From a virus, in the IMG/VR virus record IMGVR_UViG_3300009074_000054, positions 1-20,139 of that record: DNA of 20,139 nt. One strand, given 5' to 3'. The notes under the pieces are model-generated. The model saw nothing but the letters and a program-made list of their open reading frames with translations, was not told the origin of the DNA and made no database searches. The translations under genes and the position numbers were made by a program. Below are positions 1-16,839 of the stretch, in pieces (the stretch's first letter is position 1; every line of letters begins with the position of its first letter).

Positions 1-1779
1 CTCGGCAGAATTCAATTTAATCTTTCCTTTGAGAACATCGCCTAAGGTGTCTGGATTTATACGACCAAGTTTCTTTTCTAGTTTATCAAATGAACCTTCT
101 TCAATATCCTCAGACTCCTTTACAAGCTTGCTGATCTGTCCTTTTAATATCTTCTTAGCTGCATCTGCATGAGCCTTAGTTACTTTCGATTCTAAATCAA
201 GATATCTCATCTTCTTAATCAATGCGTCGGCATCCTTTCCTCCTTTGAGTCTTAGAGCCTTAAGAACCATCGCGACTGTTGCACTAGCTTCTTCAAGATT
301 GGTTGCTTCGTCAACTCCAATCATCAATGCGCTAATTGCGTCTTTAACATTTTTAAAGTATTCGACGCCAGATGACTTACCGCCATCAAACTTAATCTTG
401 CCTTTTTCGATAGAAAAATCAGTTACTGCACCTTGGCCAAAATCTGCTGTATTTCCTTTAACATCAGCACCAAGTTTTTTTGCAGTAGCAAGAACTTTCT
501 TCAGATCTGCGTTAGTTGCTTCTTCGATTTCAACAGATTCTTCGGTAAGAGCTTTAACTCCAAACTTAGGGAAATACTTATCGTTCTTCTTTTTTGCGAT
601 TGAAGCAGTATCCTTATCGTTCATCTTAGAGAATACTGCCTTAGCTTTCTTAAGATCACTTGAAGAAATCTTAGCAGCTTGATCTTTCTTAGCAAGTTCA
701 CCTGCGACTTTGATGCCATCTTTATCAGTCAACAACCGAAGAGCATGAACAATATCGCGATAAACAATAGCTTCTTCAAGAGATTCAAGCAACTTGAGCT
801 TCTTTAGTTCACTCTTTACAACACGATCTGGTGCTTCCATATCAGCTGGTGCATCGATTCCTATAAGAGTAGTAAGACCTTGTGTTAGATCCGCATTCTT
901 GATCTTACCAGACTCAATCGCTTTAACAATATTTTGTGTAACAGTTTTGCGCTGTTTCTGCTTTACAGCATCGCTCATGATCACGATCTTTTCAACCCAA
1001 GACTTCAAAGATTCTTCACCCTTTTTAATAGAGTACATGCCTTTATGAGTTTTAACCTTGATTGCTTCTTCAAGATCAGTAGCTTCAGCAATTCCTTCAA
1101 ACTCTGGTTGGCTATCAATATATCTGATGTAAGCTTCTTTAATTTCGGCTGTAGTTGAATCTAAATCGATGTTAGAGGAAGCAACGAAATTTTCGACTAC
1201 TTCCATATTATCCTGTTTGAGAGTAAGAGATACAATTTTTTCAAGTCTAAGAGTATCCAAATCCTTCTTAACCTTTACTTCTTCTTTGATCTCTTCTCCT
1301 TCAGGACGACGAGTACTCTTTTTTGGGTAAATGATCTTGAGAGGGTTATTTGTAATGAAGATTAGTTCATCATCCAAATCTAATCCAGCAGCAGTTGCTG
1401 CCTTTGTTGTTCCTAATAGTTTGTTTTTAACTCCAAGCTTAATCTCTCCTGGACGTACTGTCGATATAATCTGCTTTAGGTCGTGCTTCTTAATAAGCTT
1501 TGCTTGCTTATCCTTATCACCGTTAGTTCTTGTCCATGCTTGTTCGAGCTTCTTAAATGGAACTATTTTAGCTTCTTCGAGTGGATCGTGACCTTCTCTA
1601 ATTCGACGCTTAGACAATTCTCTCGTAATTGCTGTTACGACTGGTTTAGAAGCTGCTCTACTAACATCAGCAAAGATCCGCAATAGATCCTTTAGCTCTT
1701 TATCAGATAGCCGTGCATAATCTGCGGTGGATGCCTCAGCAATATGTTTCTCTACTATTTCTTGTTCTTTTATGTTCAT
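1..1779 (-). CDS. Putative internal head/scaffold protein with many prohead-protease sites (partial, 3' end outside window)
   Basis: The reading frame is open from the ATG at 1779 to the window edge, giving 593 codons without a stop, so the C-terminus is missing. The product is Lys/Glu/Ala-rich, largely helical in appearance, with no membrane segment. I recognise no enzyme domain. It carries at least ten (I/L)-x-E|(A/G) tripeptides, after residues 15, 62, 69, 215, 232, 238, 336, 420, 497 and 561. This is the cleavage pattern known for the T4 gp21 prohead protease. The N-terminus (MNIKEQEIVEKHIAEA) looks like a capsid targeting tag ending in IAE|A. Residues about 334-365 and 495-525 resemble each other (LEEA...ALRL...KD...L.KK), suggesting an internal repeat. 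A GGGAAAA sequence 5' of the ATG is a plausible ribosome binding site. An early-type and a late-type promoter both lie upstream. A scaffold/core or internal head protein is inferred, not proven. Confidence 0.8.
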   Translation of the reverse strand, partial: MNIKEQEIVEKHIAEASTADYARLSDKELKDLLRIFADVSRAASKPVVTAITRELSKRRIREGHDPLEEAKIVPFKKLEQAWTRTNGDKDKQAKLIKKHDLKQIISTVRPGEIKLGVKNKLLGTTKAATAAGLDLDDELIFITNNPLKIIYPKKSTRRPEGEEIKEEVKVKKDLDTLRLEKIVSLTLKQDNMEVVENFVASSNIDLDSTTAEIKEAYIRYIDSQPEFEGIAEATDLEEAIKVKTHKGMYSIKKGEESLKSWVEKIVIMSDAVKQKQRKTVTQNIVKAIESGKIKNADLTQGLTTLIGIDAPADMEAPDRVVKSELKKLKLLESLEEAIVYRDIVHALRLLTDKDGIKVAGELAKKDQAAKISSSDLKKAKAVFSKMNDKDTASIAKKKNDKYFPKFGVKALTEESVEIEEATNADLKKVLATAKKLGADVKGNTADFGQGAVTDFSIEKGKIKFDGGKSSGVEYFKNVKDAISALMIGVDEATNLEEASATVAMVLKALRLKGGKDADALIKKMRYLDLESKVTKAHADAAKKILKGQISKLVKESEDIEEGSFDKLEKKLGRINPDTLGDVLKGKIKLNSAE

Positions 1780-1874: not shown

Positions 1875-4055
1875 CTATTTACCAAACTCATGGCCGGCGA
1901 CTCTCTCCATTTGCTTGCTATATTCCTTAAAGCTCGGCTTTTCCTTATATAGCTTAATAGAAATTTCAGAGCGCTCTTTTCCCTTTATGCGCCATTTGTA
2001 ACCTTTTTCAGTGTGGTCTGGATCAGCGGTTTTGACTACTCGTCTTTTATAACCCTGTTCCCAAGTTTCTCCCTCATACTTACCTTCGCCTTCGTCAATC
2101 TTTTGCCCAGGAGTATTTTTTTTAAATATCTTTGTTGTTTCAGGAGTGCCGTAATCTAATGCTTCTTTCATTCCGCTATGTTGCGACCAAAGATCTTTAT
2201 CAGCAGTAGTTCGGGTTTTACCTCCAGTGGCAAAAGAATTGATTCTAGCAAATCCCCACTGGGATGGAGTAGTTCCAGGTCTGTGGCCAGTTTTCCAAGC
2301 TGCAACTCCACGATCAAATACCTTCTTAAGAATTGAATACGAAATACCTGTCGCTTTAGCCTTATTTTCGATACCAGTCTTATTTTCAGAGATTAGCTCT
2401 TCAGTAGATTCTCCGAGCTGGGCTGAAACCCACTTCTTAGCGATGTTATTCTTAGGAGCTTCTTTTGCAAATTTGGCCATTTGCTTGTATGCCGATGTTG
2501 TAGCCTTTGCGACGTTTGCTCCGCTTGAATTATCAACAATAACAAAGTTTTTAGAGAATAGCTGTTGGAATTTACCAAGATTGTTTTGAACATCCTTCCA
2601 CATCTTTGTAACGGTATCATCTGGAAGACTTCTCGCTCTCATCCGGTTACGCTCTAGAGCTGTATCAAGATCAGTATTAACAAAGATCATTGCTACATCA
2701 TAACCAATCGTTTTCATTAGATCAGCCTGCTTTTTAATCTTGGCATAGTCTTTACCAGTTCCATCAATTACCAAACCGAGTCTGCCGTTGATATATAGAT
2801 CCTGTTGCTTTGCTGTCAATTCCTTTGCTCTACCACGAATTTTTTGACCCTTTGGACTAAAGATATTTTCAGGTGATGGTTCAAGATCTGCTTTCTTTAG
2901 CATTACCTCAAACTTATCATCCGAATTAACAACCTTAAATCCAAGAGCAGTAAGAGCAGTCTTACCAACAGTGAATGATTTACCAGAACCTGGGCCACCT
3001 GCAAGGAATACTGCTTTGAAGATTGCTGGATCATCGACACCCTCTTCAATGCTTTCTTCACCAAACATATCTTTAAATTTCTTTGTATGTTTAGAAGTCT
3101 TTGTTTTGGCAGTAGCATCTCCTGGAGCTGGCTTATATGCGTCTGGATTATCATCATCCATAGCAGCTTGTTTTTTAAACTGCGATTGTCGTTTAGCTTT
3201 AGTTGACTTTGACAAACCTGCATGATACTTTGGATTTACAGTTTCTTCAAGGTATTCTTCAAGGTGATTAATAAAGTACTTTGTTCCAATAGAGCTAACA
3301 ACGTAGTTTGAATATCGTTCAGCGATAGTAAAGTTGTGGTTTGTCTTTTGGCACGTTACTCTATCGCCAGTATTAAAAATCTCTCCTGAAATATAGCGTT
3401 CACGCTTTTCAGATAGAGTTGGAAGTTGGATATGCTTACGAAAGTTAACCATTTCCTTTAAACCCATTCTCTTACGAATTAGATTAAAGAGCGACATATC
3501 TTCTCCGTATTCTTTTGGTAATCCCTTTGAAAAAGACTTAAAGTCACCATCGATTGCAGCTTGGCGCATCTTCGATGCAGACATTCCAGATACACCCTCA
3601 GCATCAGGATCACGATCACCCGCAGATACTACTTCAATTCCTCCATCAAAATCATACAGTCCGTGGGCTGCTTTAACTCCGTTGTACTTATTGAGAAGGC
3701 TGCTCATTTCCTTAACGCGATCAGAACCAACCACAAATTTCGCCTTAGTATAACCCTGAGAATACAGAGAGGCTGCTGCATGTAGTACCGAAATGCTTTT
3801 ATCATCAACAATGTTTCGGCCATGCTTAGGAAACATCTTACGCATTACCTTAATCTTTTCGCTGTACTGCAGAGGATTCTTCTTAGCGTCATTTGACTTA
3901 GAAGCGTATATCTTATAGTCATTACCAGTTGCGATAGATGCAACTTTAGCAAGAAGCTTTCCATGACCAACAGTAGGCGGATTGAAGCGGCCGAAAGTAA
4001 ATGTTACTTCGCGTGTCTTTTCTTCATTGAACTCTTTAAATCCTTTAACAATCAT
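1875..4055 (-). CDS. Multidomain head-tagged protein: cytidylyltransferase-like nucleotidyltransferase + P-loop kinase + DUF5824-like domain
   Basis: The product has 726 residues. Residues 14-200 form an HxGH-type nucleotidyltransferase: FGRFNPPTVGH at 21-31 holds the nucleotide-binding TVGH, and GMSASKMR at 157-164 matches the ISGTxxR-type second motif seen in archaeal NMN adenylyltransferases. Residues 200-340 form a basic linker. It opens with a second tag-like stretch (MVNFRKHIQ at 202-210, then LSE) and contains a conserved-looking KPAPGD segment. Residues 345-530 are a P-loop kinase of the zeta-toxin/polynucleotide-kinase type, with Walker A GGPGSGKS at 353-360. Residues 559-625 resemble DUF5824 (ISYSILKKVFDRGVAAWKTG). 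Possible prohead-protease sites fall in linkers: LEE at 269-271, IEE|G at 336-338, ISE at 555-557 and IDE|G at 653-655. The start MIVKGFKEF looks like a capsid targeting tag. The substrates are unknown. NMN, a lipid precursor or RNA ends are all possible. Confidence 0.85.
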   Translation of the reverse strand: MIVKGFKEFNEEKTREVTFTFGRFNPPTVGHGKLLAKVASIATGNDYKIYASKSNDAKKNPLQYSEKIKVMRKMFPKHGRNIVDDKSISVLHAAASLYSQGYTKAKFVVGSDRVKEMSSLLNKYNGVKAAHGLYDFDGGIEVVSAGDRDPDAEGVSGMSASKMRQAAIDGDFKSFSKGLPKEYGEDMSLFNLIRKRMGLKEMVNFRKHIQLPTLSEKRERYISGEIFNTGDRVTCQKTNHNFTIAERYSNYVVSSIGTKYFINHLEEYLEETVNPKYHAGLSKSTKAKRQSQFKKQAAMDDDNPDAYKPAPGDATAKTKTSKHTKKFKDMFGEESIEEGVDDPAIFKAVFLAGGPGSGKSFTVGKTALTALGFKVVNSDDKFEVMLKKADLEPSPENIFSPKGQKIRGRAKELTAKQQDLYINGRLGLVIDGTGKDYAKIKKQADLMKTIGYDVAMIFVNTDLDTALERNRMRARSLPDDTVTKMWKDVQNNLGKFQQLFSKNFVIVDNSSGANVAKATTSAYKQMAKFAKEAPKNNIAKKWVSAQLGESTEELISENKTGIENKAKATGISYSILKKVFDRGVAAWKTGHRPGTTPSQWGFARINSFATGGKTRTTADKDLWSQHSGMKEALDYGTPETTKIFKKNTPGQKIDEGEGKYEGETWEQGYKRRVVKTADPDHTEKGYKWRIKGKERSEISIKLYKEKPSFKEYSKQMERVAGHEFGK

Positions 4056-4056
4056 A

Positions 4057-4233
4057 CTAAATATCTTTTCTCTTTATTAACGGTGCTGAGCAATCATTGC
4101 TTTCAAGTTTTTTCCTATTAGCGTTGACTTTAGCAAGATAACCATCAGGATCTATGTCTGTGCCAGATTGCTGAGTATAATCTACCACTAGAAAGTCTTT
4201 AAAATTTAGTATTTTTTCTGGTAATTTATTCAT
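4057..4233 (-). CDS. Small tag-bearing protein, 58 aa, hypothetical
   Basis: A 58-codon reading frame from ATG 4233 to TAG 4057-4059 fills the gap between two larger genes. Its stop lies one base before the ATG of the 726-residue gene, so translation may be coupled. The N-terminus contains ILNFKDFLVVDY, resembling the F-K-x-F-(I/L) tag found on its neighbours. The rest (GTDIDPDGYLAKVNANRKKL) is unlike anything I recognise. A late-type box TATAAATA ends only 9 bases before the ATG, so a transcript from it would be nearly leaderless. The tight fit between neighbours and the shared tag make it more likely real than chance, but it is short. Confidence 0.55.
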   Translation of the reverse strand: MNKLPEKILNFKDFLVVDYTQQSGTDIDPDGYLAKVNANRKKLESNDCSAPLIKRKDI

Positions 4234-4242
4234 TGTAATATA

Positions 4243-4250
4243 TATTTATA
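4243..4250 (-). promoter_or_regulatory. T4-type late promoter box TATAAATA
   Basis: Exact TATAAATA on the minus strand in the 28-base gap upstream of the 58-aa ORF. An AGGAGAG sequence lies just 5' of it and would not be in the transcript, so it cannot act as a binding site for the small ORF if this promoter is used. It probably serves the small ORF and the 726-residue gene. Confidence 0.5.
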
Positions 4251-4261
4251 CATCTCTCCTA

Positions 4262-5152
4262 TTACGTTAGCTTATCTAGAGCTTCAGGAACAGGATATTT
4301 CTTCTTTAAGAGACCTTCTTTAGCCATCTTGTAGATATCTTTGCGATGTTTCTTGTGTGGAAAGGAGGATGATTGTACTGCCTTTAGAGCTTGCTCAAAG
4401 GTTAATATATCACTGGCTTTGTATGAGCCTCCAAATAGATATTTAATAATGGTGTCTGGATCATCGCTCAGTGTTTCTGATGATACTTTTTTAGCAGTCT
4501 TTGTGACTTTGCCAGTTTTCAGAGATTTTAATGATTGAGTTCCCTTTTGCAATCCTCCTGATAACGAGAACCAAAAACGATCCCACGTAATAGGCTGCTT
4601 ATCATTCGACATTTCTTTTACTTTCAATCCAGCGAATTTAGCGATACCATACAATAACTCATTTCGATATAATCCCTTTAGGCTTGATTCAAGATATGAA
4701 GGAGAATAATAAGACCAAGAAGCGAGCTTAACATTATCAACGAGCATGAAATCAAGTTGTACAGTTTCACCTTCTTGTTTACCATCTACATTTGTAATTG
4801 GATACCCAACCGAGACAATACCGATAGACCTTAGATCTCTAAATTTATATCCCTTTTTCTTTGTGATATTAATGATAAGGTCTATCATGTCACCAAATGT
4901 AGATACGTTCTTATGCTTAAGCAATTCTCGAGAAGAAAGAGCAATATCAATATCTCCTGAAACTGCTTTAGGAGCTTTCTTTCCAGTAGAACCTAGTATT
5001 GCAGTATCTTTTTCGCTAAGACCAAGAAGCTTTAAATAATCTTTAAATACAGATTTTACAGTGGCAATCGAGTTTTCTTGGTTGATACCAACAACTCCTT
5101 CGACAGCATTTCCGCCTTCATTGATTTGTATAAATTGTTTAAAGTTTATCAT
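4262..5152 (-). CDS. Pol-beta-superfamily nucleotidyltransferase with capsid-targeting-like N-terminus
   Basis: The product has 296 residues. LGSTGKKAPKAVSGDIDIAL (53-72) carries the G-S...D-x-D signature of the Pol-beta-like nucleotidyltransferase fold, with acidic residues D67 and D69. VQLDFMLVD (131-139) supplies the likely third acidic residue, D134. Family members add nucleotides to RNA, protein or small molecules; the substrate here is not evident. The N-terminus MINFKQFIQINEGG fits the tag pattern of this cluster, with INE|G as a candidate prohead-protease site at residues 10-12. The C-terminal 60 residues are basic, with FPHKKHRKDIYK. The start codon overlaps the stop of the upstream ligase-like gene by 4 bases (ATGA), so the two are translationally coupled. 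All catalytic residues appear present. Confidence 0.8.
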   Translation of the reverse strand: MINFKQFIQINEGGNAVEGVVGINQENSIATVKSVFKDYLKLLGLSEKDTAILGSTGKKAPKAVSGDIDIALSSRELLKHKNVSTFGDMIDLIINITKKKGYKFRDLRSIGIVSVGYPITNVDGKQEGETVQLDFMLVDNVKLASWSYYSPSYLESSLKGLYRNELLYGIAKFAGLKVKEMSNDKQPITWDRFWFSLSGGLQKGTQSLKSLKTGKVTKTAKKVSSETLSDDPDTIIKYLFGGSYKASDILTFEQALKAVQSSSFPHKKHRKDIYKMAKEGLLKKKYPVPEALDKLT

Positions 5153-6087
5153 TTCTTTTTGAATTTTATGTCTTTAAGTTTTGCTCTACGATCTTTGAAT
5201 CTAGCTGAAGTAGCCTTTAGTGTAGTGCCTGATTTCGTCTGAAGAACGATACCTTCGAAATCATCTCCAAACTTTCCAGCTCTTACATATGATAGTATTT
5301 TATTTGAAAGCTCTGTTTGGTATTTAGCAATCTCTTGTTTAAGTTTATCTTTGAGAGGTTTATCTATCTTTTTTCGTGACACCAATGCTGCATCGATATT
5401 ATCATACTTAGAGAGAATATTCTTTTTAACCTTATCAATGCTTAACGTGATATCTATATCAGAATCAATCTTTAAATTTGCACTGGTGTACTTACGCTCC
5501 TTAGTCGAAATCTTATATAAAGCTTTGAATATCTCTTCCTTATTTTCGATAGGGTTTCCGTCGAAGTCTTGAACATCGAATGGCACAAATGTCCATTCTT
5601 CCCCTAAGTTCTTCTTGTCGTAATCCATAAAAATGAATTGAAGTTTACTGTTCTTCGTTTCAGTTGCAAGTGGCACATACAACACCTCTCCAGTAATAAC
5701 GATACCATTTCCAGTATTGTATTTAGAAAGTACACTTTGTAACTTCTTATCGTTTTGTACTTCCTTTAGTATATTATCAAAGTTAACACTAATGCTATTG
5801 TCATAACCCTTAGAGGTTGCAAAGGTTGAGAAGTCGCCAGGCTTAAAATACCGCTGAGACATTTTAGTATTAATAAATGTCTTGCCTTTAGAATCTTGAC
5901 CAATCGTAAGAGAGCTACCATCGATCTTCTCAGTAATAGATATATCCTTTAATTTAAGAACGCCTTTATATTCAGATTCCAACTCCTTAATAAGAGACAA
6001 AAAATCAATTGGCTTCATTGTCTCAATATGAGTAATGAAGGTTGGCGATATCTTAGTTTCAACTAGGAATGTCTTAAATGAAATCAT
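5149..6087 (-). CDS. DNA/RNA ligase-type covalent nucleotidyltransferase with capsid-targeting-like N-terminus
   Basis: The product has 312 residues. TEKIDGSSL (52-60) is motif I (K-x-D-G) of the ATP-dependent ligase/capping enzyme superfamily, with K54 as the expected adenylated lysine. TGEVLY in the middle resembles motif III. FEGIVLQT (277-284) is motif IV and TLKATSARF (289-297) is a motif V-like stretch. The length suits a minimal ligase core plus insert, and no OB-fold extension is obvious. An RNA ligase of the Rnl2-like group is the best guess; a DNA ligase is less likely because of the small size. The protein begins MISFKTFLVETK, with LVE as a candidate cleavage site. It starts within the stop codon of the 98-aa gene (TAATG) and ends in an ATGA overlap with the Pol-beta-type gene, forming one operon. 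Confidence 0.8.
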   Translation of the reverse strand: MISFKTFLVETKISPTFITHIETMKPIDFLSLIKELESEYKGVLKLKDISITEKIDGSSLTIGQDSKGKTFINTKMSQRYFKPGDFSTFATSKGYDNSISVNFDNILKEVQNDKKLQSVLSKYNTGNGIVITGEVLYVPLATETKNSKLQFIFMDYDKKNLGEEWTFVPFDVQDFDGNPIENKEEIFKALYKISTKERKYTSANLKIDSDIDITLSIDKVKKNILSKYDNIDAALVSRKKIDKPLKDKLKQEIAKYQTELSNKILSYVRAGKFGDDFEGIVLQTKSGTTLKATSARFKDRRAKLKDIKFKKK

Positions 6088-6383
6088 TATGGAGCTAGTT
6101 TAATTTCAACTTGTTTTGGTTTTACCTTCAACTCTTTCTTTAGAAATTTAGTCAATTGTTTAACGGCGCTTTTATATGTTGACATTGCTTTTGAAACGAA
6201 TGTATCTTGTTGCATTCCAATAATTCCACCAGAATTTAAAGATGCTTTATAGTCAAATGCCCATGTTCCTTCACCCTTAGGTTGTTGACCTCGATGTGAG
6301 AATTGCCAAGGTGTTAAATCGATTGCATAACCTTCTTTAAGTTCTTGCTCCTTTTCGATTACATGTTCTTTAAATGTTTTCAT
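6087..6383 (-). CDS. Small head-tagged protein, 98 aa, hypothetical
   Basis: The N-terminus MKTFKEHVIEKEQELKEG closely resembles, from memory, the capsid targeting sequence of T4 internal protein III (MKTYQEFIAEA). LKE|G at residues 15-17 is a candidate prohead-protease site. Cleavage there would leave a mature protein of about 80 residues. It would start YAIDLTPWQFSHRG and have a basic, Lys-rich C-terminal half, as expected for a DNA-associated internal head protein. No domain is recognised. The start is well supported by AGGA 8 bases upstream. It lies first in a coupled operon with the ligase-like and Pol-beta-type genes, directly behind a late-type box. Confidence 0.75.
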   Translation of the reverse strand: MKTFKEHVIEKEQELKEGYAIDLTPWQFSHRGQQPKGEGTWAFDYKASLNSGGIIGMQQDTFVSKAMSTYKSAVKQLTKFLKKELKVKPKQVEIKLAP

Positions 6384-6394
6384 ATTAATATTCC

Positions 6395-6402
6395 TATTTA
6401 TA
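6395..6402 (-). promoter_or_regulatory. T4-type late promoter box TATAAATA
   Basis: Exact TATAAATA on the minus strand, 11 bases before the ATG at 6383. It overlaps the AGGA that serves as ribosome binding site (TATAAATAGGA). A start at the usual late distance would give a leader of only about 5 bases without AGGA, so some translation may depend on upstream read-through. Confidence 0.55.
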
Positions 6403-7797
6403 TTAATAAATTTTAATAAAGAATCCGTTATCTACGCTTATCTTCTTAGCGCCATTAATCATCTTATTCATGATGTTAGATAGGTCTTTTTCGTTTGTTA
6501 TAAAGAAGTGCATAATCTTTAGACCCTGTATTTTCATGCATAAATTCTGTGCAACTTCATAATCATTCTGAGCTTTTGCAACAAGATCATCAAACTCTTC
6601 TTTGGTCAATTGGTTTTGATCTTTAACTTTTTTATGTTTAATAACTGTTTTGTACCACCCGTATATTTCCTTACGTCTAGCTTCATTAAATGTACCGAAT
6701 ATTTCTGGCGTTCTACCAAAATATGCAATACTGCTAATTCTTTCATCATCATATTCGGCCATAATACGATCCAAAATAGCAGTACTAATTTTACCTAATC
6801 GACCTCCTGACGGTGTTCCATCTGAGGTAATTTCAGTTTGTGCAGTACCATATCCATGCGGAAAACCACGTACCTGTAGGCTAATTTGTTTTAATGTGTC
6901 AGTATTCTTAAATGTAAATAGGCCAATTTCTTTACCTTCTTCGCTTAAGTTACAGTTAAACTTAGCGATCTCAATGTTATATGCTGCTATCTTAATTTTA
7001 CCAGGCTCATTCGCATAATCTATCGATGGATTATTATTGACTAATTGCTTAAGAGAGATCGGATAAAGTGTCTTCTTTTTGTAATAAGAGTATAGCTTAT
7101 TGTTAAACATCGGAATTAATCCATCTTTAATTTCATAAGTATCTACCAAATTCTGTAGCTCTTTTGAAATGGCAGACTTTTTCCTCTTACTGACTATGAA
7201 GATGTCTGCTGGATTCCATGAATCTTTAGCAATCTTTGCCTTCTTAGTAAATGCAGTAATAGCTTTAGCAAAATCTGATTTGTCTGTTGCATCATGCAGT
7301 ATATCAAAACCGCTTAAAGAACCAACAATCTTTTTAACCACAGAGCGCGTGTTTTTAAAGGTTGGTAACCATGCGATGTATGCATCTGGGTTATCGATGA
7401 ATAGCTGTTGACCAGTATCTTTAGGTGTCTTAATGTCTTTTCTCAAGGATGCTACAGTTGCTAACTCACCAGCATCAGCCAACTTCTTCCCGAGAGCATT
7501 CCTTGAACCATTGCCCATACCTGAAAACAACGACTTATCAATATCAATGAATCTAAATTCTCTTTTGCCATCAGTAAACACAGCAGCATAGGCTTGTTCT
7601 GATTTATTTGGATAGAGAATCTTCGTATATTTAGAAACGTCGGTCTGAACCTTTTCTAAAGCCACGATATCTTTAGTCTTTTTAAACTTATAAAATTTGC
7701 CATCTTTCGCCTTAATCTTATCACCAGCATTAATCTTAGCGACTATCGCAGTAATATATTTTGGTTTGGAGAGGTCTGCTTTACTAAATAGTGCCAT
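6403..7797 (-). CDS. Hypothetical phage protein with a PD-(D/E)xK-like motif
   Basis: The product has 464 residues and no signal peptide or membrane segment. WNPADIFIVSK (194-204) resembles the P-x-D-h-h-h-x-K core of PD-(D/E)xK nucleases. A glutamate in AGELATVASL (E111) could be the preceding acidic residue of such a fold. The C-terminal half (SGGRLGKISTAILDRIM, EIFGTFNEARRKEIYGWYK) is not recognised. Unlike its neighbours it does not start with the F-K-x-F tag (MALFSKADLSKPKY), so head packaging is less clear. The start lies one base after the stop of the 106-aa gene, and no Shine-Dalgarno sequence is visible, so translation is probably coupled. A nuclease is a tentative guess; a structural role is equally possible. 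Confidence 0.75.
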   Translation of the reverse strand: MALFSKADLSKPKYITAIVAKINAGDKIKAKDGKFYKFKKTKDIVALEKVQTDVSKYTKILYPNKSEQAYAAVFTDGKREFRFIDIDKSLFSGMGNGSRNALGKKLADAGELATVASLRKDIKTPKDTGQQLFIDNPDAYIAWLPTFKNTRSVVKKIVGSLSGFDILHDATDKSDFAKAITAFTKKAKIAKDSWNPADIFIVSKRKKSAISKELQNLVDTYEIKDGLIPMFNNKLYSYYKKKTLYPISLKQLVNNNPSIDYANEPGKIKIAAYNIEIAKFNCNLSEEGKEIGLFTFKNTDTLKQISLQVRGFPHGYGTAQTEITSDGTPSGGRLGKISTAILDRIMAEYDDERISSIAYFGRTPEIFGTFNEARRKEIYGWYKTVIKHKKVKDQNQLTKEEFDDLVAKAQNDYEVAQNLCMKIQGLKIMHFFITNEKDLSNIMNKMINGAKKISVDNGFFIKIY

Positions 7798-7798
7798 A

Positions 7799-8119
7799 TT
7801 ATGTTAAGTCAGATACTGTTTTGCCCTTTTCCCAGAACTTACACGACCAGTAGCGCGCCTTCCATTTTGGGCCCAAATCTGTATCGCACTGATGACGAGC
7901 TCTAAAGCTTTTACGTCTTTTAGGATCATCTCGCTTGATTTCCATATTAGGATCTCCAAAACCGAGTTTAATAGTATTACCCTTTTCGTTCTTTACATAC
8001 ACGTAGAACTTCTTCTTACCGTCATTGGCACGAAACGGCTTATTAAGAGTAACCTTCTTACCCTGATATTCTGTCTCTTCAAACAAGAGAGAGTCTTTAA
8101 ATTCTAGCATAATTCCCAT
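7799..8119 (-). CDS. Conserved small phage protein (GDPNMEIKRDDP...FRARH family), probably head-associated
   Basis: The 106-residue product has a strongly patterned core: NKPFRANDGKKKFYVYVKN, GFGDPNMEIKRDDPKRRKSF, RARHQCDTD and YWSCKFWEKG. I recognise this arrangement from many phage genomes, where it is a small uncharacterised family near head or structural genes. C78 and C92 could bind metal. The N-terminus from the second methionine (MLEFKDSLLFEET) fits the capsid-targeting-like pattern, with LFE as a candidate cleavage site. The true start may therefore be 8110 rather than 8119. Neither ATG has a good Shine-Dalgarno sequence. A late-type box precedes it by 33 bases. Confidence 0.8.
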   Translation of the reverse strand: MGIMLEFKDSLLFEETEYQGKKVTLNKPFRANDGKKKFYVYVKNEKGNTIKLGFGDPNMEIKRDDPKRRKSFRARHQCDTDLGPKWKARYWSCKFWEKGKTVSDLT

Positions 8120-8152
8120 AGTGTGTTAAGTTTTAAGATACTTAGTCTAATC

Positions 8153-8160
8153 TATTTATA
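8153..8160 (-). promoter_or_regulatory. T4-type late promoter box TATAAATA
   Basis: Exact TATAAATA on the minus strand in the 53-base gap between the protease gene and the 106-aa gene, 33 bases before the ATG at 8119. It marks the change from replication genes to the presumed late block. Confidence 0.65.
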
Positions 8161-8172
8161 ACATAACACTTT

Positions 8173-8646
8173 TTAGTATTGCGCCCATTTACAGTTTTTC
8201 CAGCGACTTTGTTCAAACCACCGTATAAATAAGCCCCTTTCTCTCCCATGCGCCTCTATCTCCCATGGAAGGTCGTAATAATTTACGACGTTACATTTCA
8301 CTATGGATCCATGCCATTTGCATAAGTTAACCTCTCTAGAAAGGTCCTTTAGTTCTCCCTTTGCGAATTGCTTTACATGCACCATTTCATGAGCAACGGT
8401 TTCTAGCATTGCTTGAATAGGCTGAGAAGAGTCAACTCTCATAATGAATTCACGAGGACGGTACGAGCTATCTTCCCATATACAATCTCCTGAGAGCTCT
8501 TCTTTACCTCTTAGATCACGTATGAGTTTAATATCTACCTCTACCTTATTTACTAAGCGTGGTGCTAAGTGGTTAAGAGAGAAGTTGGCAATGTCTTCTA
8601 CCATTTCTCTCTTAACCTTACCTGAACCTGTAACCGATATAAACAT
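8173..8646 (-). CDS. SprT-like zinc metalloprotease domain protein
   Basis: The product has 157 residues. TVAHEMVHVKQ (83-93) holds the zinc-binding HExxH motif, H86-E87-x-x-H90, with E87 as catalytic base. LPWEIEAHGRE (126-136) downstream offers the third ligand, E131 or H133, as in SprT/gluzincin-type proteins. Known SprT-family members include SPRTN, which digests DNA-protein crosslinks. The C-terminus has Cys and aromatic residues (RWKNCKWAQY). The start codon overlaps the helicase stop codon (TAATG), so it is coupled to the replicative helicase, which suggests a role at the fork. A lysis or head-maturation role is less likely from this position. Confidence 0.8.
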   Translation of the reverse strand: MFISVTGSGKVKREMVEDIANFSLNHLAPRLVNKVEVDIKLIRDLRGKEELSGDCIWEDSSYRPREFIMRVDSSQPIQAMLETVAHEMVHVKQFAKGELKDLSREVNLCKWHGSIVKCNVVNYYDLPWEIEAHGRERGLFIRWFEQSRWKNCKWAQY

Positions 8647-11403: not shown

Positions 11404-12426
11404 CTATAGGAAGAACGCGTCTAATCCTCCAGTCGGCTCTGTCCAGTTTTTACCCTGCCAATGAGGATATGATGCTCGAGATAGATGAACCGATTGTGGT
11501 TTTTCCATTACATCGAAACTGAGTTCTCCAATAGTATTCTTTAGATTTGCCGTCCACATATACACTGTTGTATGACTTTTAAGTCTTTCAATAAATGCTT
11601 GACGTACATCTGTTCGTTCTTGCCATGATCCATAGAATGGAGTCTTTTTATACCAACCAGTTTTCGGCACTTTGCGAGATTCGTTCTCAATTGGAAGTGG
11701 TTCCCAAGGAATAACACTTGCACTATATGCTCTAGAAATTCGGTAGAGTTCAGCACTGTATCGATCTGCTAGCTTTTCAGCTTCTTCGATTGGATTATCG
11801 AATCTGCATAGGTGATGTCGTATATCAATGTTGCCAAAATATGTTTCGATCTTATCATACTCTCGATCTTTAGGAATGAATGTTTCAAACCCACGATTGA
11901 TAGAACCATGCAGTGTAGAGAATGGAACAGATACATTTTCCCATTGAGGACGATACATACAAATCGCGTGACTATCTCCAAATGAGATGTTTGTATAATG
12001 TCTAATCGTATTTGGATCTACTGTAATTGCATCGGCCTGCAACTTCTTTAGATTATTCCAATCAACTTCATTCCATGTAAGATTAGCCTTCGTTAGTCGA
12101 TCCTCAAACATTGATGCATAATCAGGGAAGTCGACAATGATAGAGTTTACCTTACCCTTGAAGTTAGATAGAGCAACTAAGAAGTCTTTGTTTGGATAGG
12201 CTTGAATGCCACCAAAGAGATTAAGGCCACCGCTCCAATCACTACCATGATAGAAAAAGATCTCATCGTATGGTGTGTAGTCTTTAATCTTATCTGACAC
12301 CAAATTGATAGTTACGTCATAACGCGCTTCGCTGAGCTGATCAGCATAGATAATAGCCTGCGCTGCTTTATGAGAGTGTATCTTATTTGATATAGGTCCT
12401 AAACTAGTTAATAGTATCTTTTTCAT
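11404..12426 (-). CDS. Two-part protein with GDSH (SGNH-like) motif in the putative DNA-modification block
   Basis: The product has 340 residues. The first 120 begin MKKILLTSLGPISNK and alternate strands and helices like a Rossmann-type or glycosyltransferase N-lobe. The middle has ISFGDSHAICMYRPQW (149-164), a GDS motif as in block I of SGNH hydrolases. YFGNIDIRHHLCR follows, where the GN and HH could be the other SGNH blocks. The C-terminus has PKTGWYKKTPFYGSWQERTD. I do not know the exact family. Its start overlaps the PLP-enzyme stop by 23 bases, so it belongs to the same operon as three genes resembling base-hypermodification enzymes. A transferase or hydrolase acting on the modified base is inferred. 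Confidence 0.8.
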   Translation of the reverse strand: MKKILLTSLGPISNKIHSHKAAQAIIYADQLSEARYDVTINLVSDKIKDYTPYDEIFFYHGSDWSGGLNLFGGIQAYPNKDFLVALSNFKGKVNSIIVDFPDYASMFEDRLTKANLTWNEVDWNNLKKLQADAITVDPNTIRHYTNISFGDSHAICMYRPQWENVSVPFSTLHGSINRGFETFIPKDREYDKIETYFGNIDIRHHLCRFDNPIEEAEKLADRYSAELYRISRAYSASVIPWEPLPIENESRKVPKTGWYKKTPFYGSWQERTDVRQAFIERLKSHTTVYMWTANLKNTIGELSFDVMEKPQSVHLSRASYPHWQGKNWTEPTGGLDAFFL

Positions 12427-13312
12427 CTTTCTTCCATTTTCTATATGAGTTTATGCTTTCGTAGAGTGATTCATCTTCAAGTTTCGGTGAAGCCCCAACA
12501 TTCCAGAAAAGAATGTCTCTTCCAGTGTTTTTAGGAATATACTTCCACGCTTTACCGTCGTAGGTATTAACTGAGGGAAACGGTGGAAGATCTTCTTTAA
12601 TCGCAGTCGTAAAGGGAAGAGGATGGGAAATGATACTATCATGACCGATCTCCCCGCTTTTCATGTTACGAGAAACTGCAACACAGTGGAACTTAGCATT
12701 TGGCCAAGCAATTTGTAATGCTCTATGCAATACGCCAGTCGAAATGACGGTCCACACTTCTTCTGGTTCAGGGATTTGAGATGCTACTTTTACAAATCCT
12801 GCAGTCACTAACTCGTGTTTCAAGCCAAGAGGAATAAAGAAAGCATCTTCTTGTTCATCTGCCCACTTCTTCGCGATAGCGTTCAGATTAGGCATAGCAG
12901 CAATACGATGAAACTCGTAGTCAGCACCTTTCTCAATACAGCATGCTTGGTGATGTGAGATCTGTTTCGAAGAGGGCATGAACAGTTTCACCTTCTTATC
13001 ATGTCGCTTTGCAACCTCTAAGAGAGATACACCTGCTAGTCCAGTTCGAGGTTGAACATAGACGAGAGTCTTCTGTTTGATCTGAGAAACTAAAAGATCT
13101 CCTCCTCGGATCTTACTACCAACAAGCAGATCGTCTCGAACAACTCGAACACCATCATGCATCTTAACAACTGGAGGTGGATTAGGATCTTCCCAATCTT
13201 TTGCTAAATCCAAATAGTACTCCCGGGCCTCTGCGCGGGTACTTATGCCTTGCAGTCGTAAGACTTCGATATCCTTATTGCAGTTATCTATTGTATGCGT
13301 ATCGTGTGACAT
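12404..13312 (-). CDS. PLP-dependent enzyme, fold type II (TrpB/cysteine synthase/ACC deaminase-like)
   Basis: The product has 302 residues. RDDLLVGSKIRGGDLL (59-74) resembles the PLP-lysine segment of ACC deaminase and D-cysteine desulfhydrase (G-N-K-x-R), with K67 as the likely Schiff-base lysine. YVQPRTGLAGVSLLEVAKRH (75-94) corresponds to the substrate loop (S-x-G-N-H-A) in a diverged form. STGVLHRALQIA resembles the Gly-rich phosphate-binding loop. PLP enzymes occur in phage thymidine-hypermodification clusters, where they process an amino acid attached to DNA. The perfect promoter at 13319-13347 places the -10 box 6 bases before the ATG, so its mRNA may be leaderless. It overlaps the GDSH gene by 23 bases. 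Confidence 0.7.
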   Translation of the reverse strand: MSHDTHTIDNCNKDIEVLRLQGISTRAEAREYYLDLAKDWEDPNPPPVVKMHDGVRVVRDDLLVGSKIRGGDLLVSQIKQKTLVYVQPRTGLAGVSLLEVAKRHDKKVKLFMPSSKQISHHQACCIEKGADYEFHRIAAMPNLNAIAKKWADEQEDAFFIPLGLKHELVTAGFVKVASQIPEPEEVWTVISTGVLHRALQIAWPNAKFHCVAVSRNMKSGEIGHDSIISHPLPFTTAIKEDLPPFPSVNTYDGKAWKYIPKNTGRDILFWNVGASPKLEDESLYESINSYRKWKKDEKDTIN

Positions 13313-13318
13313 AACCCT

Positions 13319-13347
13319 ATTATACAGTATTTAGCCTACTTTGTAAA
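13319..13347 (-). promoter_or_regulatory. Sigma70-type promoter TTTACA-N17-TATAAT for the PLP-enzyme gene
   Basis: -35 TTTACA at 13342-13347, directly after the upstream stop codon, and -10 TATAAT at 13319-13324, spacer 17. Only AGGGTT separates the -10 from the ATG at 13312, so the predicted transcription start coincides with the start codon. Confidence 0.75.
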
Positions 13348-14325
13348 CTACTTTTTTAATGAGAAGGTCTTCGGATAGACCCAATCATATGGGATTTTCT
13401 TAGTAGTTCCCTTTATACCATGCCGAATAAACAGATGCTTACACCACATACACGCCTTATCTTCGATATTGATATTATATTGGCGCTTCATTGGATTATC
13501 TGGATGAGCTGCGACCTCATTGAATTGGCGAACAAGCTCCTTTGCTGGATCATTGATCGGTTTATATGCTCCAGTCGATTCATCTAATTCAAACTTTGTT
13601 TTACCGAATAGGTTCTTACCTCCAAAGAGTTGCCATAATCCATAGAATGACAATGTGCCTGGAGTAACCCATGATTCTGGATCTACCAAATCAGGACGAG
13701 CCATTGCGATATGGCGAGAGAGATTCTTAAACGGATACATCACATTACGAAATCCAAACTTCTCTTTAGTGTGTCGTTCTAACTTAGATGCTAACTCCAT
13801 CATTGTAAGTCTCCTATCAGATTCTAGAATCGAATAGCAATCTTCTGCAATTTGTTGAGGAACTTCACACAACCAATCTCGTACGATAGTTCCCTTTGGA
13901 TAGTAGATCTGAAAAAGATCAGAGCGAGCATGCCTTTCAGTTTCAAACCGAGTCTTCATAGCTTCGATACCATGATCGCGCAATGCTCTAAACGTTAGCC
14001 AATGCTCGTTACTGAATGACCATACAATAGTGTGATGCAAAAGCGTCTTGAGATCTTTCTCGTCCTTCATCTCATCTACATACGGCATTTCATCCCAGTG
14101 TAATCGATGAGAGAACTGTTGTGGATTTGCTTTAAGTAGAGGTTCTTCTCTTACATCGTATGCTCTACAGAACTCAAAGAACTTTTGAAATCGTTCTTCG
14201 AGAGAGTAGTTTTCTAATAGACAATTAGTCGGCTTGCCTTTCTTTAAGATTGGTTCAGACGAATTTGGATAGATAATCTTATTAGTGCTGCTATCATCGA
14301 TGAAATCTTCTATAGTGTTTTGCAT
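13348..14325 (-). CDS. Putative base-hypermodification protein (amino acid:DNA transferase / pyrophosphorylase-like)
   Basis: The product has 325 residues, is soluble, and is rich in Trp, Arg and His. Notable segments are HTIVWSFSNEHWLTFRALRD, YPFKNLSRHIAMARPDLVDP (210-229) and SFYGLWQLFGGKNLFG, then DKACMWCKHLF (about 293-303) near the C-terminus, where C296 and C299 form a CxxC that could bind metal. The pairing with the next upstream gene and with a PLP enzyme recalls the alpha-glutamyl/putrescinyl-thymine pyrophosphorylase and amino acid:DNA transferase families of phages with hypermodified thymine. I cannot confirm the family by eye. The start overlaps the upstream gene stop by 16 bases. 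The N-terminal 30 residues (DSSTNKIIYPNSSEP) look disordered. Confidence 0.75.
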   Translation of the reverse strand: MQNTIEDFIDDSSTNKIIYPNSSEPILKKGKPTNCLLENYSLEERFQKFFEFCRAYDVREEPLLKANPQQFSHRLHWDEMPYVDEMKDEKDLKTLLHHTIVWSFSNEHWLTFRALRDHGIEAMKTRFETERHARSDLFQIYYPKGTIVRDWLCEVPQQIAEDCYSILESDRRLTMMELASKLERHTKEKFGFRNVMYPFKNLSRHIAMARPDLVDPESWVTPGTLSFYGLWQLFGGKNLFGKTKFELDESTGAYKPINDPAKELVRQFNEVAAHPDNPMKRQYNINIEDKACMWCKHLFIRHGIKGTTKKIPYDWVYPKTFSLKK

Positions 14326-15503
14326 TTTTCTTTGTATTGTTCGACTGTCATTCCTGCTTGTTTTAGAATAGTATCATCTGAAGGGTGATTCTTAATACCA
14401 TTGAAAGTTTTGATTAAACCAAAATCTAACATAGCTTTTTGTCTTCCATATGGATGATCTTTAATGCTCGATGAATTCCATAATGTATCCATATTTACAT
14501 CTGCATAATCGGCTCCAGGACGGACATAGTTTTCAATCCAACGAATGAAGTCGCATGCAACATCTTCTGCGTTATACGGCACTGATCCAGTATCTTCATA
14601 GATTTTCATCATCACGGCATCTAAGAACTCTTCTGACTTCTTACCCTTACCATTAGGCGTGTCTGCCAAATAACCAATGCACTCAACAGCATTTGTTCCA
14701 TAATAGAACATTGACTCAAGATTGACAAATTGCGGAAACCAATCAGCAACGTCTGCAATGATTGCCGCATATTGAAAACGGTATACTCTTAGGCCATTCG
14801 TTTGGTTCCATTTAAACATCCATTCACCAATTTCTCGGAGATTGCGTTTACCGCCTTTCTCTAAGAAAGATGCTAAGTCACGAGCCAAACGTGGTGCATA
14901 CTCGCATAGGAAGTAATCTCCTCCACGCTTGTATACATAATCACCTTCGATACCAAACAATGGAGCCGATTCTACTTGAGGCTTTGGTGGTTTTGGAAAT
15001 GCTGGAAACTGATAACCAACTGAAGTGTAAAATGTCTTTTTAGTAGACTTCACTTGTTCACACATTTCTTCGATTGTATCAGATTGCCATAGATCAAACA
15101 AAAGAGTGTTATGATAGCCGCTTGGTTTCGTTGCATAGTTAATAGCTGAACCACATACACGATGGAGAATGAAGAGATAGAGCCATTCAGAAAGTCCGAA
15201 TGTGTCTCTCTTATTACTCCAATTCGCTGCTACTTCTTTTCGTTGATGTGTATAAAGACCAGCTTCCATTCTTGACCAGTATGGATGATCTTCTGACCAA
15301 CCATAGAAGCAATCATTCACGATCTGACTGAAGCCAGCGAACTTCCTTTCAACAACATCATAGAGCTCAATGTTCTCCATAAGAGGATCTCCAAGCTGAG
15401 AATCCTTATGCGGTATATGACCTAAGTTTGATTTCTCTTGTTGGTCTTTAGCTAAATGAAAGTACCGAATGAACTCATCATAATATTTTGTTGTTTTAAC
15501 CAT
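14310..15503 (-). CDS. Putative amino acid:DNA transferase-like base-hypermodification protein
   Basis: The product has 397 residues. Conserved-looking segments are LYLFILHRVCGSAINYATKP, GYHNTLLFDLW, TSVGYQFPAFPKPPKP, GGDYFLCEYAPRLARDLASF, RNLREIGEWMFKWNQTNGLR, YRFQYAAIIADVADWFPQFV and FYYGTNAVECIGYL. From memory this resembles proteins annotated as amino acid:DNA transferase or alpha-glutamyl/putrescinyl-thymine pyrophosphorylase clade 2. Such enzymes transfer an amino acid or amine to activated 5-hydroxymethyl pyrimidine in DNA. The dense Gly, Trp, Tyr and Arg motifs suggest an enzyme. It starts 3 bases after the dCMP deaminase stop and overlaps the next gene by 16 bases. The function is inferred with moderate confidence; the gene itself is clear. 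Confidence 0.8.
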   Translation of the reverse strand: MVKTTKYYDEFIRYFHLAKDQQEKSNLGHIPHKDSQLGDPLMENIELYDVVERKFAGFSQIVNDCFYGWSEDHPYWSRMEAGLYTHQRKEVAANWSNKRDTFGLSEWLYLFILHRVCGSAINYATKPSGYHNTLLFDLWQSDTIEEMCEQVKSTKKTFYTSVGYQFPAFPKPPKPQVESAPLFGIEGDYVYKRGGDYFLCEYAPRLARDLASFLEKGGKRNLREIGEWMFKWNQTNGLRVYRFQYAAIIADVADWFPQFVNLESMFYYGTNAVECIGYLADTPNGKGKKSEEFLDAVMMKIYEDTGSVPYNAEDVACDFIRWIENYVRPGADYADVNMDTLWNSSSIKDHPYGRQKAMLDFGLIKTFNGIKNHPSDDTILKQAGMTVEQYKEKCKTL

Positions 15504-15506
15504 GTA

Positions 15507-15944
15507 TTATATATAGGTGATTTTTACATTGGCTTCATTTAGAAAGTCAGTTGCTGTTCCGCATGATTCATTCCAACGTATATTATTTGATGTGCCCATA
15601 ACAACTTCTTTAATGCCAACTTGAATCATTGCTTTAGCGCATTCGTGACAACACGGAAGTCCATGTATATATGCTGTAGCTCCTGCAAGAGATACGCCAG
15701 AGCGAGAAGCGTTATAGATTGCATTCATCTCAGCGTGGACAATGCGACTATACTTCGATTCGCGATTATTATAGAGTTCTTCATCATCACTCATTCCACG
15801 GGCAAAGCCGTTATATCCTTGAGATAGTACTTGACCAAATTTTCCGATGATCACTGCACCACACTGAGTTGAAGGATCTTTGGACCATTGGGCAATAGTA
15901 CGAGCCAACTCGATATATCGCTTATGCCATTTATTTGTTGTCAT
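15507..15944 (-). CDS. dCMP deaminase
   Basis: The start at 15944 (MTTNKWHKRYIELA) is chosen. The longer frame upstream adds 30 residues that only shadow the DUF1599-like gene, while the short form (145 residues) fits the family. HAEMNAI at 70-76 holds the zinc-binding H70 and catalytic E72. CHEC at 99-102 holds the two zinc cysteines, with Cys instead of the usual Pro before it (PCCHEC against PCPDC in T4). GAVIIGKFGQVLSQGYNGFA is the typical N-terminal strand and GYNG loop. The enzyme converts dCMP to dUMP, feeding dTMP or a 5-hydroxymethyl-dUMP route. It overlaps the DUF1599-like gene by 14 bases. Confidence 0.93.
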   Translation of the reverse strand: MTTNKWHKRYIELARTIAQWSKDPSTQCGAVIIGKFGQVLSQGYNGFARGMSDDEELYNNRESKYSRIVHAEMNAIYNASRSGVSLAGATAYIHGLPCCHECAKAMIQVGIKEVVMGTSNNIRWNESCGTATDFLNEANVKITYI

Positions 15945-16281
15945 CAGCAATCTGTTCTTTGCGATTAAGGAAGTCACGTTCAGGATCTTGACCATCCATT
16001 CCTCCTCGCATATAAGCAACGATGAACGAACCATAATTAATCAAATCTTTTGATGAATCTTCGAGAGACTCAAAGTTTGGATTATAGTTTGGATCGTTTT
16101 CCATTGCTTCAAGCACAGACTGCATCCGTAGCACCTTCGCGTGAACGATGTCGATAATCGTTGATATACCACGCGGATAATAATCTGCTTGGCGAATACG
16201 GCTATTCGGGTTTTGGTAATCGTTGCCCTTCGATGTTTGAAGCTCAGCGCATTCTTGTAATACTTTAATTGATTCTTTCAT
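15931..16281 (-). CDS. DUF1599-like (nucleotide-modification-associated) protein
   Basis: The 116-residue all-helical product has KGNDYQNPNSR (18-28), DIVHAKVLRMQSVLE (44-58) and ESLEDSSKDLINYGSFIV (71-88). This matches the KG-x-DY ... K-x-x-R ... ES-x-x-D-x-x-x-D-L-x-x-Y layout of DUF1599. That family has been proposed to be associated with nucleotide modification, and its fold is possibly related to MazG-type pyrophosphohydrolases. Its position between a thymidylate-synthase-family gene and dCMP deaminase fits that idea. A promoter directly precedes it, with only 6 bases between the -10 box and the ATG. The family assignment is by eye. Confidence 0.7.
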   Translation of the reverse strand: MKESIKVLQECAELQTSKGNDYQNPNSRIRQADYYPRGISTIIDIVHAKVLRMQSVLEAMENDPNYNPNFESLEDSSKDLINYGSFIVAYMRGGMDGQDPERDFLNRKEQIADDNK

Positions 16282-16287
16282 ACTAAT

Positions 16288-16316
16288 ATTATACTATAAT
16301 TTATACGTGTTGTAAA
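16288..16316 (-). promoter_or_regulatory. Sigma70-type promoter TTTACA-N17-TATAAT for the DUF1599-like gene
   Basis: -35 TTTACA at 16311-16316, inside the end of the upstream gene, and -10 TATAAT at 16288-16293, spacer 17. ATTAGT is all that separates the -10 from the ATG at 16281, predicting a leaderless mRNA. It shares 14 exact bases around the -10 with the promoter at 1844-1872. Confidence 0.75.
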
Positions 16317-16792
16317 TGATTAACGTTTAGAAGACTGTAACCTTTAGAAGTTTTAAACGCGGTTTTAATAGCCTCTTTTAATGGAAGCATTCCTTCAAAC
16401 TTAAATGTCAACTCTTGTCCAATCTTATAGTCGTGTTCTATGTTTTGAGAGAATGCTACAATATGAGTAAGCTGATTGCGATTATATGAATCAACCATTT
16501 TCAATATTCCAGTTAGAGATACATTAGAGTATTGACTTGGCTTTCGTTTCAAATCAATTAATACTTCATCTGTAAATGCCCAATCATGTCTCCATTGATA
16601 GGCTTCTTTCTCTACTTTGTCTAAAGTTTTCATTAGACCAATGTGTTTAGCCGTTATCTCAAGAGCAAGAGCATCTACATTTTCACGACTGCTATATGCT
16701 GGTTTCTTCGCCTCTTCGTCGAGTCTATTGAGCAACCACTCATCTACCACATATGTGTGGTTATTAATTATTTCTGCAATTTTTTCAATCAT
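16301..16792 (-). CDS. Hypothetical phage protein, 163 aa
   Basis: No family is recognised. The product is acidic and mostly helical in its first 110 residues (MIEKIAEIINNHTYVVDEWL, KPAYSSRENVDALALEITAK). The C-terminal part is beta-like (YKIGQELTFKFEGMLPLKEA). It has no signal peptide or membrane segment. It lies in the nucleotide-metabolism operon between the thymidylate-synthase-family gene and the DUF1599-like gene. A 14-codon reading frame sits immediately upstream, joined by one base to its ATG. Its last codons overlap the -35 box of the next promoter. Confidence 0.75.
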   Translation of the reverse strand: MIEKIAEIINNHTYVVDEWLLNRLDEEAKKPAYSSRENVDALALEITAKHIGLMKTLDKVEKEAYQWRHDWAFTDEVLIDLKRKPSQYSNVSLTGILKMVDSYNRNQLTHIVAFSQNIEHDYKIGQELTFKFEGMLPLKEAIKTAFKTSKGYSLLNVNHLQHV

Positions 16793-16793
16793 A

Positions 16794-16838
16794 TTAGCTC
16801 GAGAAAGAAGCGTTTAAGTCAGCTGCGTTGAATTTCAT
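16794..16838 (-). CDS. Possible 14-codon micro-ORF
   Basis: ATG at 16838 follows the thymidylate-synthase-family stop after one base. The frame reads MKFNAADLNASFSS and stops at 16794-16796, one base before the ATG of the 163-aa gene. Both junctions read TAATATG. It exactly fills the intergenic gap, so it may be a leader peptide, a coupling device or the remnant of a start. It is too short to be sure. Confidence 0.25.
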   Translation of the reverse strand: MKFNAADLNASFSS

Positions 16839-16839
16839 A

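Follow-up and report, generated by a model that had tools for sequence, protein, structure and literature searches.

A probable capsid-targeted polyprotein of a marine phage with candidate head-protease sites between its enzyme modules

The window examined here is a stretch of 20,139 bases from a virus record, on which all genes considered lie on the minus strand. Its gene at 1875-4055 (minus strand), read as a single open frame of 726 residues, probably encodes a capsid-targeted polyprotein that the prohead protease, presumably of the S77 type, would cleave in trans, and the freed modules would enter the next cell with the DNA; a probability of about 0.7 is assigned to this reading. At the level of sequence, the modules of the chain are fused, split and reordered among relatives, head-targeting tags occur, and fused copies still have hydrophobic-x-E at the joins. 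The features of the chain are as follows.

4020..4055, minus strand: N-terminal capsid-targeting-like tag, residues 1-12 (MIVKGFKEFNEE), from its tag-profile score and variants in relatives
3462..4019, minus strand: nucleotidyltransferase (NMNAT/cytidylyltransferase-like), residues 13-198; Pfam CTP_transf_like, phrog_3041, phrog_395
3453..3461, minus strand: candidate site LKE-201 at the transferase end; [ILVM]xE at this column
3408..3452, minus strand: second tag-like element, residues 202-216 (MVNFRKHIQLPTLSE), from the tag profile; predicted disordered
3255..3407, minus strand: small beta-rich module, residues 217-267, with five strands in the model ("SH3" is our own label)
3054..3221, minus strand: basic module, residues 279-334 (YHAGLSKSTKAKR...KHTKKFKDMFG), from a custom HMM
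3042..3050, minus strand: candidate prohead-protease site IEE-338, followed by G, ahead of the kinase; its column lines up with the point where the tags of stand-alone kinases end
2496..3041, minus strand: P-loop kinase, residues 339-520; AAA_33/Zeta_toxin
2385..2393, minus strand: candidate site ISE-557 ahead of DUF5824, from retention in fused copies
2184..2381, minus strand: DUF5824, residues 559-624; PF19141, 67.5 bits
2091..2099, minus strand: candidate site IDE-655, followed by G, ahead of the C-terminal module, from retention in fused copies
1878..2090, minus strand: C-terminal module, residues 656-726, from the alignment of relatives

Pfam places CTP_transf_like at residues 20-117 (24 bits against a cut-off of 21), AAA_33 at 350-489 (40 bits) and Zeta_toxin at 347-500 (34 bits), both above their cut-offs, and DUF5824 at 559-622 (67.5 bits, above cut-off), and the cytidyltransferase families of PHROGs cover residues 10-295. 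The C-terminal module (656-726) is without a Pfam match and contains 36 invariant columns across 10 diverse copies (alignment A3); the basic module gave 175 matches with our own HMM across the loci of the best 80 relatives per scan. An AlphaFold2 model built from 70 sequences (mean pLDDT 84, pTM 0.45) consists of folded blocks, with pLDDT mostly above 90 in the transferase domain and the strands of the beta-rich module spanning 232-267, and between the blocks pLDDT falls below 50 (206-213, 271-274, 326-337, 634-636 and 647-661). An earlier note on this DNA had listed an HxGH nucleotidyltransferase, a basic linker, a P-loop kinase and a DUF5824-like domain in one gene. The transferase, kinase and DUF5824 are borne out by Pfam, but the letters of the supposed HxGH motif are TVGH (28-31); the supposed linker (202-335) contains the beta-strand module and the conserved basic module, and the conserved module downstream of DUF5824 had been overlooked.

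A tblastn search with the chain matched 530 phage records, with at least 80% of the protein covered in two only, both HTVC008M. Scans of viral contigs confirmed 160 relatives of the whole protein and 592, 591 and 560 for three module alignments; the best 80 of each were kept and the ORFs of their loci searched by HMM for the six modules of the window chain, identical proteins being removed and near-identical ones kept. Among 341 complete ORFs in these loci there are 28 architectures, 23 of them multi-module. Of the ORFs with the kinase, 70 have no other module and 36 do; the corresponding numbers are 52 and 105 for DUF5824 and 48 and 36 for the C-terminal module. In L029 the order is swapped to transferase-DUF5824-kinase-C-terminal module. 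HTVC008M encodes the kinase separately, as a protein of 220 residues (MIPFILKEGLYDPGIF...), and a transferase-DUF5824 fusion comes next. Melnitz has one protein made up of the transferase, DUF5824 and a further module, which the window encodes separately with a tag (7799-8119); its kinase has a gene of its own about 50 kb away, MKTFAELQE/GVYDPNIF (here and below, a slash marks the candidate point of cleavage). C48C1 encodes DUF5824 separately (MITFKKYLEEKR...DLEE/G). Outside this phage group, the Agrobacterium phage Atu_ph07 carries the same kinase behind an unrelated N-terminal region, with VTE/GVND at the join; this protein (L349:1748-4084, 778 residues) comprises a YRGMK-motif N-terminal region, the kinase and then two similar segments starting ELFDT.

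The YRGMK motif of Atu_ph07 recurs in the preceding ORF of 497 residues. One fused copy (L070:5869-8226) has an N-terminus, MKDKYSFKDLTVVDYT, that resembles the window's 58-residue gene at 4057-4233 (NFKDFLVVDYT), as if a gene of that type had been fused too. Cyanophage proteins adjoining the transferase (L088:3251-4222 and 6955-8517; L089:4935-6344; L092:414-1619) have, as judged by eye, reshuffled segments in common (e.g., LDPVGKEDGDVDNDGKK and KGKHGQSxxEY) joined by glutamate-rich links, and possibly belong to the same modular system.

Modules of the chain also occur in relatives as separate genes with a tag. Stand-alone kinases begin with a near-perfect T4 internal-protein tag (e.g., MLKFSQFISE/GVNDPAIFKA): 33 of 58 distinct 10-mers fit the T4 spacing x3-[FYLI]-x2-[FYHLI]-[ILMV]-x-E, with the consensus M-L-K-F-K-Q-F-L-S-E, and the other 25 are variants, many with the core moved upstream. 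In the T4 record ipII and ipIII start MKTYQEFIAE/A and ipI starts MKTFKEFTSTTTPVSTITE/A; passages of PMC9026906 assign residues 4 and 7 of the T4 tag to targeting and residues 8 and 10 to processing, and give the gp21 motif as L/I-x-E. Tags are also found on stand-alone genes for the C-terminal module (e.g., MIDFKDFIAE/GEGKYKG) and for DUF5824 (L004, L082, L084 and others). Since a narrow regular expression was too strict (1 of 181 ORFs in HTVC008M and 5 of 199 in Melnitz), a profile of the stand-alone kinase tags was adopted, the scores of which are not independent for kinase genes. By this profile the tag core of the window gene, GFKEFN, scores above 99.9% of internal 6-mers; it is shifted with respect to the T4 spacing (F6, F9, N10, E12) and has variants in relatives (IKGFKQFNEE, KSFTEYLTEE, KSFKQFTEA), whereas cyanophage homologues start MKSFLQFLKEA or MKSFFQFLSEA. 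In the loci of the best 80 relatives per scan, 167 of 1046 non-redundant genes have a tag core at the N-terminus, compared with 90 of the 8751 internal windows.

Fused copies have lost the tag, yet keep hydrophobic-x-E at the same column, which for the kinase is the one where the stand-alone tags end. Here "fused" means, strictly, that another module lies upstream in the same ORF, and "non-redundant" that the copies were reduced to 70% identity over 22 upstream residues. Among the non-redundant fused copies the motif is present in 13 of 14 kinases, against 944 of 4017 linker windows (23.5%; binomial P 7e-8), in 15 of 16 C-terminal modules, against 737 of 2876 (25.6%; P 2e-8), and, within 18 residues upstream of the anchor, in 55 of 55 copies of DUF5824, against 3114 of 10313 (30.2%; P 2e-29); the non-redundant copies are still mutually related, so these P values overstate independence, and the linker windows come from proteins of a wider fused set that took in ORFs called too far upstream. 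The exceptions are one fused kinase (L236) and one fused C-terminal module (L049). Each of the 28 strictly fused kinases, the 14 non-redundant ones included, reads E/G here, with E as P1, and residues farther upstream are little conserved. At the transferase end, [ILVM]xE occupies the LKE-201 column in 134 of 147 distinct C-termini. Some fused junctions also contain whole tag remnants (e.g., ESFIDFLE/GPGK in L069 and FKEHLELEE/GVND in L125): 13 of 85 pass the threshold, compared with 211 of the 4073 control windows (P 4e-4), and when the threshold is made stricter 7 of 85 do, compared with 132 of the 4073 (P 0.02).

In the window protein itself LKE-201, LSE-216, IEE-338, ISE-557 and IDE-655 are all present as L/I-x-E sites, and the last three are positioned exactly at module starts. 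Linkers account for 103 of the 714 residues and contain eight of the nine [LI]xE motifs after residue 12 (Fisher P = 2e-4 in comparison with other glutamates). Disorder is predicted at or beside three of the four junctions at LKE-201, IEE-338, ISE-557 and IDE-655; in the AlphaFold2 model pLDDT below 50 flanks IEE-338 (326-337) and surrounds IDE-655 (647-661), and ISE-557 lies at the end of a predicted helix, outside the low-pLDDT stretches. The earlier note had proposed that IEE, ISE and IDE fall between domains and had named poor conservation in homologues as counter-evidence. The sites are where it put them and nearly all fused copies keep them, compared with 24-30% for linker windows, so that this half of its proposal is supported, with cleavage there presumed.

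The element at residue 202 calls for a different account from the one first given. The earlier note read it as the point where another tagged gene had become fused to the transferase, and the segment is indeed real and conserved: its core NFRKHI (within MVNFRKHIQLPTLSE) ranks 7 of 83,495 internal 6-mers by the profile of N-terminal tags, F/Y-x-x-H-I/V-x-L is conserved in most relatives, and residues 206-213 have pLDDT below 50, although LSE-216 is absent in one clade, which has SN, TD, TT or SD instead. The fusion is nevertheless very improbable. The module that follows the element was found in 152 ORFs of the loci of the best 80 relatives per scan, none of which is a complete ORF starting there; in 150 the transferase belongs to the same ORF, and a contig end truncates the remaining two. 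The segment also falls inside the phrog_3041 and phrog_395 matches, and sampled cyanophage homologues have an MWQVAPKLDP-like sequence at this position and no tag. A second gene start was therefore rejected. Some transferase-only relatives of about 200 residues have an untagged N-terminus and end in a tag-like sequence, SFSQYIKE in L178:1610-2206 (...GMQLKETYVSFSQYIKE), SFSQFLRD in L177:78-674 (...GMELKETYKSFSQFLRD) and SFKSFLKE in L181:594-1232 (...GMQLKEGEVFHSFKSFLKEQLCIGS), and this ending coincides with the 202 element when aligned on the preceding helix. Since the two coincide and hydrophobic-x-E is kept between helix and element, residues 202-216 are most likely the C-terminal tag of the transferase module, now internal, and could be excised between LKE-201 and LSE-216. 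C-terminal tags show no general enrichment, with 7 among the 1046 non-redundant genes and 90 among the 8751 internal windows, and three of the seven belong to these transferase-only proteins, so the claim is confined to the transferase family; two further endings, in L170 and L147, were assessed by visual inspection, and that of L233 is weaker.

Several neighbouring genes are likewise tagged. Tag cores above the 99.9 percentile occur in 6 of 24 window genes including 1875-4055, all within 1875-8119; in HTVC008M and Melnitz pooled they occur in 13 of 380 ORFs. The genes next to the chain are:

4057-4233, minus strand: tagged
4262-5152, minus strand: tagged
5149-6087, minus strand: tagged RNA ligase (PF09414, 33.5 bits)
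6087-6383, minus strand: tagged
6403-7797, minus strand: untagged
7799-8119, minus strand: tagged

The product of 4262-5152 (MINFKQFIQINEGG) contains the letters GSTGKK...SGDIDIA, which we take to be polymerase-beta-type nucleotidyltransferase-like, and has no family above cut-off in Pfam or PHROGs. Farther off, 11404-17586 (minus strand) encodes a PLP-dependent enzyme-like protein (PALP, below cut-off), a dCMP deaminase and a thymidylate synthase-like enzyme, which might form a DNA base modification set. The large protein encoded at 1-1779 (minus strand), truncated by the contig end, is rich in E and K, contains hydrophobic-x-E many times over (LEEA, IEEA) and has no family above cut-off in Pfam or PHROGs; it is possibly another chain like that of 1875-4055.

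An S77 protease is present in three of nine records searched (HTVC008M, Melnitz and C48C1, all complete), was not found in the six incomplete contigs searched, and no protease gene was found on the 20 kb window contig. No peptidase family was detected in the 726-residue protein with Pfam or PHROGs; a protease embedded within the chain was considered and rejected, as Pfam shows no peptidase domain. Virion association comes from the Synechococcus phage S-SCSM1, in which the transferase homologue, not fused to a kinase, and the adjoining gp089, gp282, gp280 and gp279 are annotated as virion proteins. NMNAT/cytidylyltransferase proteins are reported in cyanophage virions in passages of PMC9602691 and PMC10665884, where the authors caution that such proteins could be carry-over.

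The nearest folds of the kinase are the Clostridium thermocellum polynucleotide kinase (4gp6) and L-seryl-tRNA(Sec) kinase. The transferase gave weak NMNAT-type model matches; against solved structures its segment had no match in a sequence search, a 20-member profile had one borderline match (UPF0348 protein MJ0951), and DUF5824 and the C-terminal module yielded nothing useful. Literature searches returned nothing on DUF5824 or under 'cytitidyltransferase'. A tagged RNA ligase, a kinase and a nucleotidyltransferase together suggest an injected RNA-repair set; an RNA-repair or NAD-restoring kit, strategies discussed for phages in passages of PMC9503650, is plausible, with less confidence than packaging.

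We infer a mechanism in which the N-terminal tag directs the entire chain into the prohead core, as the propeptide of T4 internal proteins does, and a T4-gp21-type (S77) prohead protease cuts after hydrophobic-x-E in flexible linkers, at IEE-338, ISE-557, IDE-655 and probably LKE-201. The transferase, kinase, DUF5824 and C-terminal module would thus be freed within the head and injected with the DNA. Several cargoes would then share a single tag, and this would account for the loss of the tag from fused copies that still have the cut site. On balance the comparison leans towards a wider, exchangeable cargo system in marine T4-like phages, in which a 10-residue head tag plus hydrophobic-x-E forms a cassette, modules move among tagged single genes, tagless polyprotein links and forms with the tag at the C-terminus, and cleavage in trans by the head protease yields separate injected enzymes in equal dose. 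If so, this would be a Gag-Pol-like cargo trick, one targeting signal loading several enzymes in a fixed ratio for the maturation protease to separate and so bringing several enzymes into the next cell, and tag plus cut site would be a sequence rule for finding injected enzymes in marine phages, many of whose genes of this sort carry only the label 'hypothetical protein'.

Two other readings of the chain have to be weighed. It may be packaged and left uncut, as a polyvalent effector of tethered enzymes, with the conserved glutamates being module edges inherited with the domain. The virion RNA polymerase of phage N4, packaged uncut according to passages of PMC5512222, is a precedent, and the helix-end position of ISE-557 and the presence of V at P3 in 6 of 14 fused kinases, weaker than the L/I preferred in T4, point the same way. 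We regard this as unlikely: the upstream neighbours of the kinase vary freely while its invariant P1 is held and P3 stays hydrophobic in 13 of 14 non-redundant copies, the column is that of the tag end in stand-alone genes, and retention is seen in three unrelated modules. A cytoplasmic metabolic fusion for NadR-like NAD salvage or RNA repair, with no role in the virion, seems decidedly improbable; NadR (6gyf) is among the fold matches of the kinase, at rank 50, and the transferase has its weak NadM-type matches, but T4-type tags on the window gene and its neighbours and the virion annotation of the S-SCSM1 homologue and its neighbours argue against it.

The polyprotein cut in trans is, we infer, best read as a variation on T4 internal proteins and 'polyvalent' phage proteins. 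In T4, according to passages of PMC9026906, the internal proteins IPI-IPIII and Alt carry a capsid targeting sequence and are cut by gp21. The window chain resembles them in its short N-terminal tag-like sequence (aromatics at 4 and 7 in T4, at 6 and 9 in the chain), its L/I-x-E site and the S77 protease of its complete relatives, and would likewise be non-structural cargo packed in the head; T4, however, has one protein per tag, whereas the window chain has several enzyme modules per tag with a site before each. The closest prior idea appears to be that of the polyvalent proteins of phages and conjugative elements, described in passages of PMC5512222 as multidomain mosaics for which packaging and injection have been proposed, with release of their domains by proteolysis credited to an embedded metallopeptidase and compared with RNA-virus polyproteins. 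The shuffled combinations of unrelated domains in one phage polypeptide are common to both, but an embedded peptidase is proposed for many polyvalent proteins, though not all, as self-cut virus polyproteins have a protease domain inside the chain, whereas by Pfam and PHROGs the window protein has neither and its sites fit a head protease acting in trans. A literature search of titles and abstract openings found no description of a polyprotein that is targeted to the head and taken apart there in trans by a prohead protease. Among cyanophage virion transferases (S-SCSM1 ORF91 and S-CREM2 ORF154, as given in passages of PMC9602691 and PMC10665884), ORF91 was the one compared; it shares the homologous transferase and has the N-terminal tag MKSFLQFLKEA, but has no kinase, DUF5824, C-terminal module or tag-like element at the residue-202 position. 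NadR, which joins an adenylyltransferase and a ribosylnicotinamide kinase, has the same order of HIGH-type transferase and P-loop kinase; by fold matches the window kinase comes closer to polynucleotide and seryl-tRNA kinases, and it would be separable at its site.
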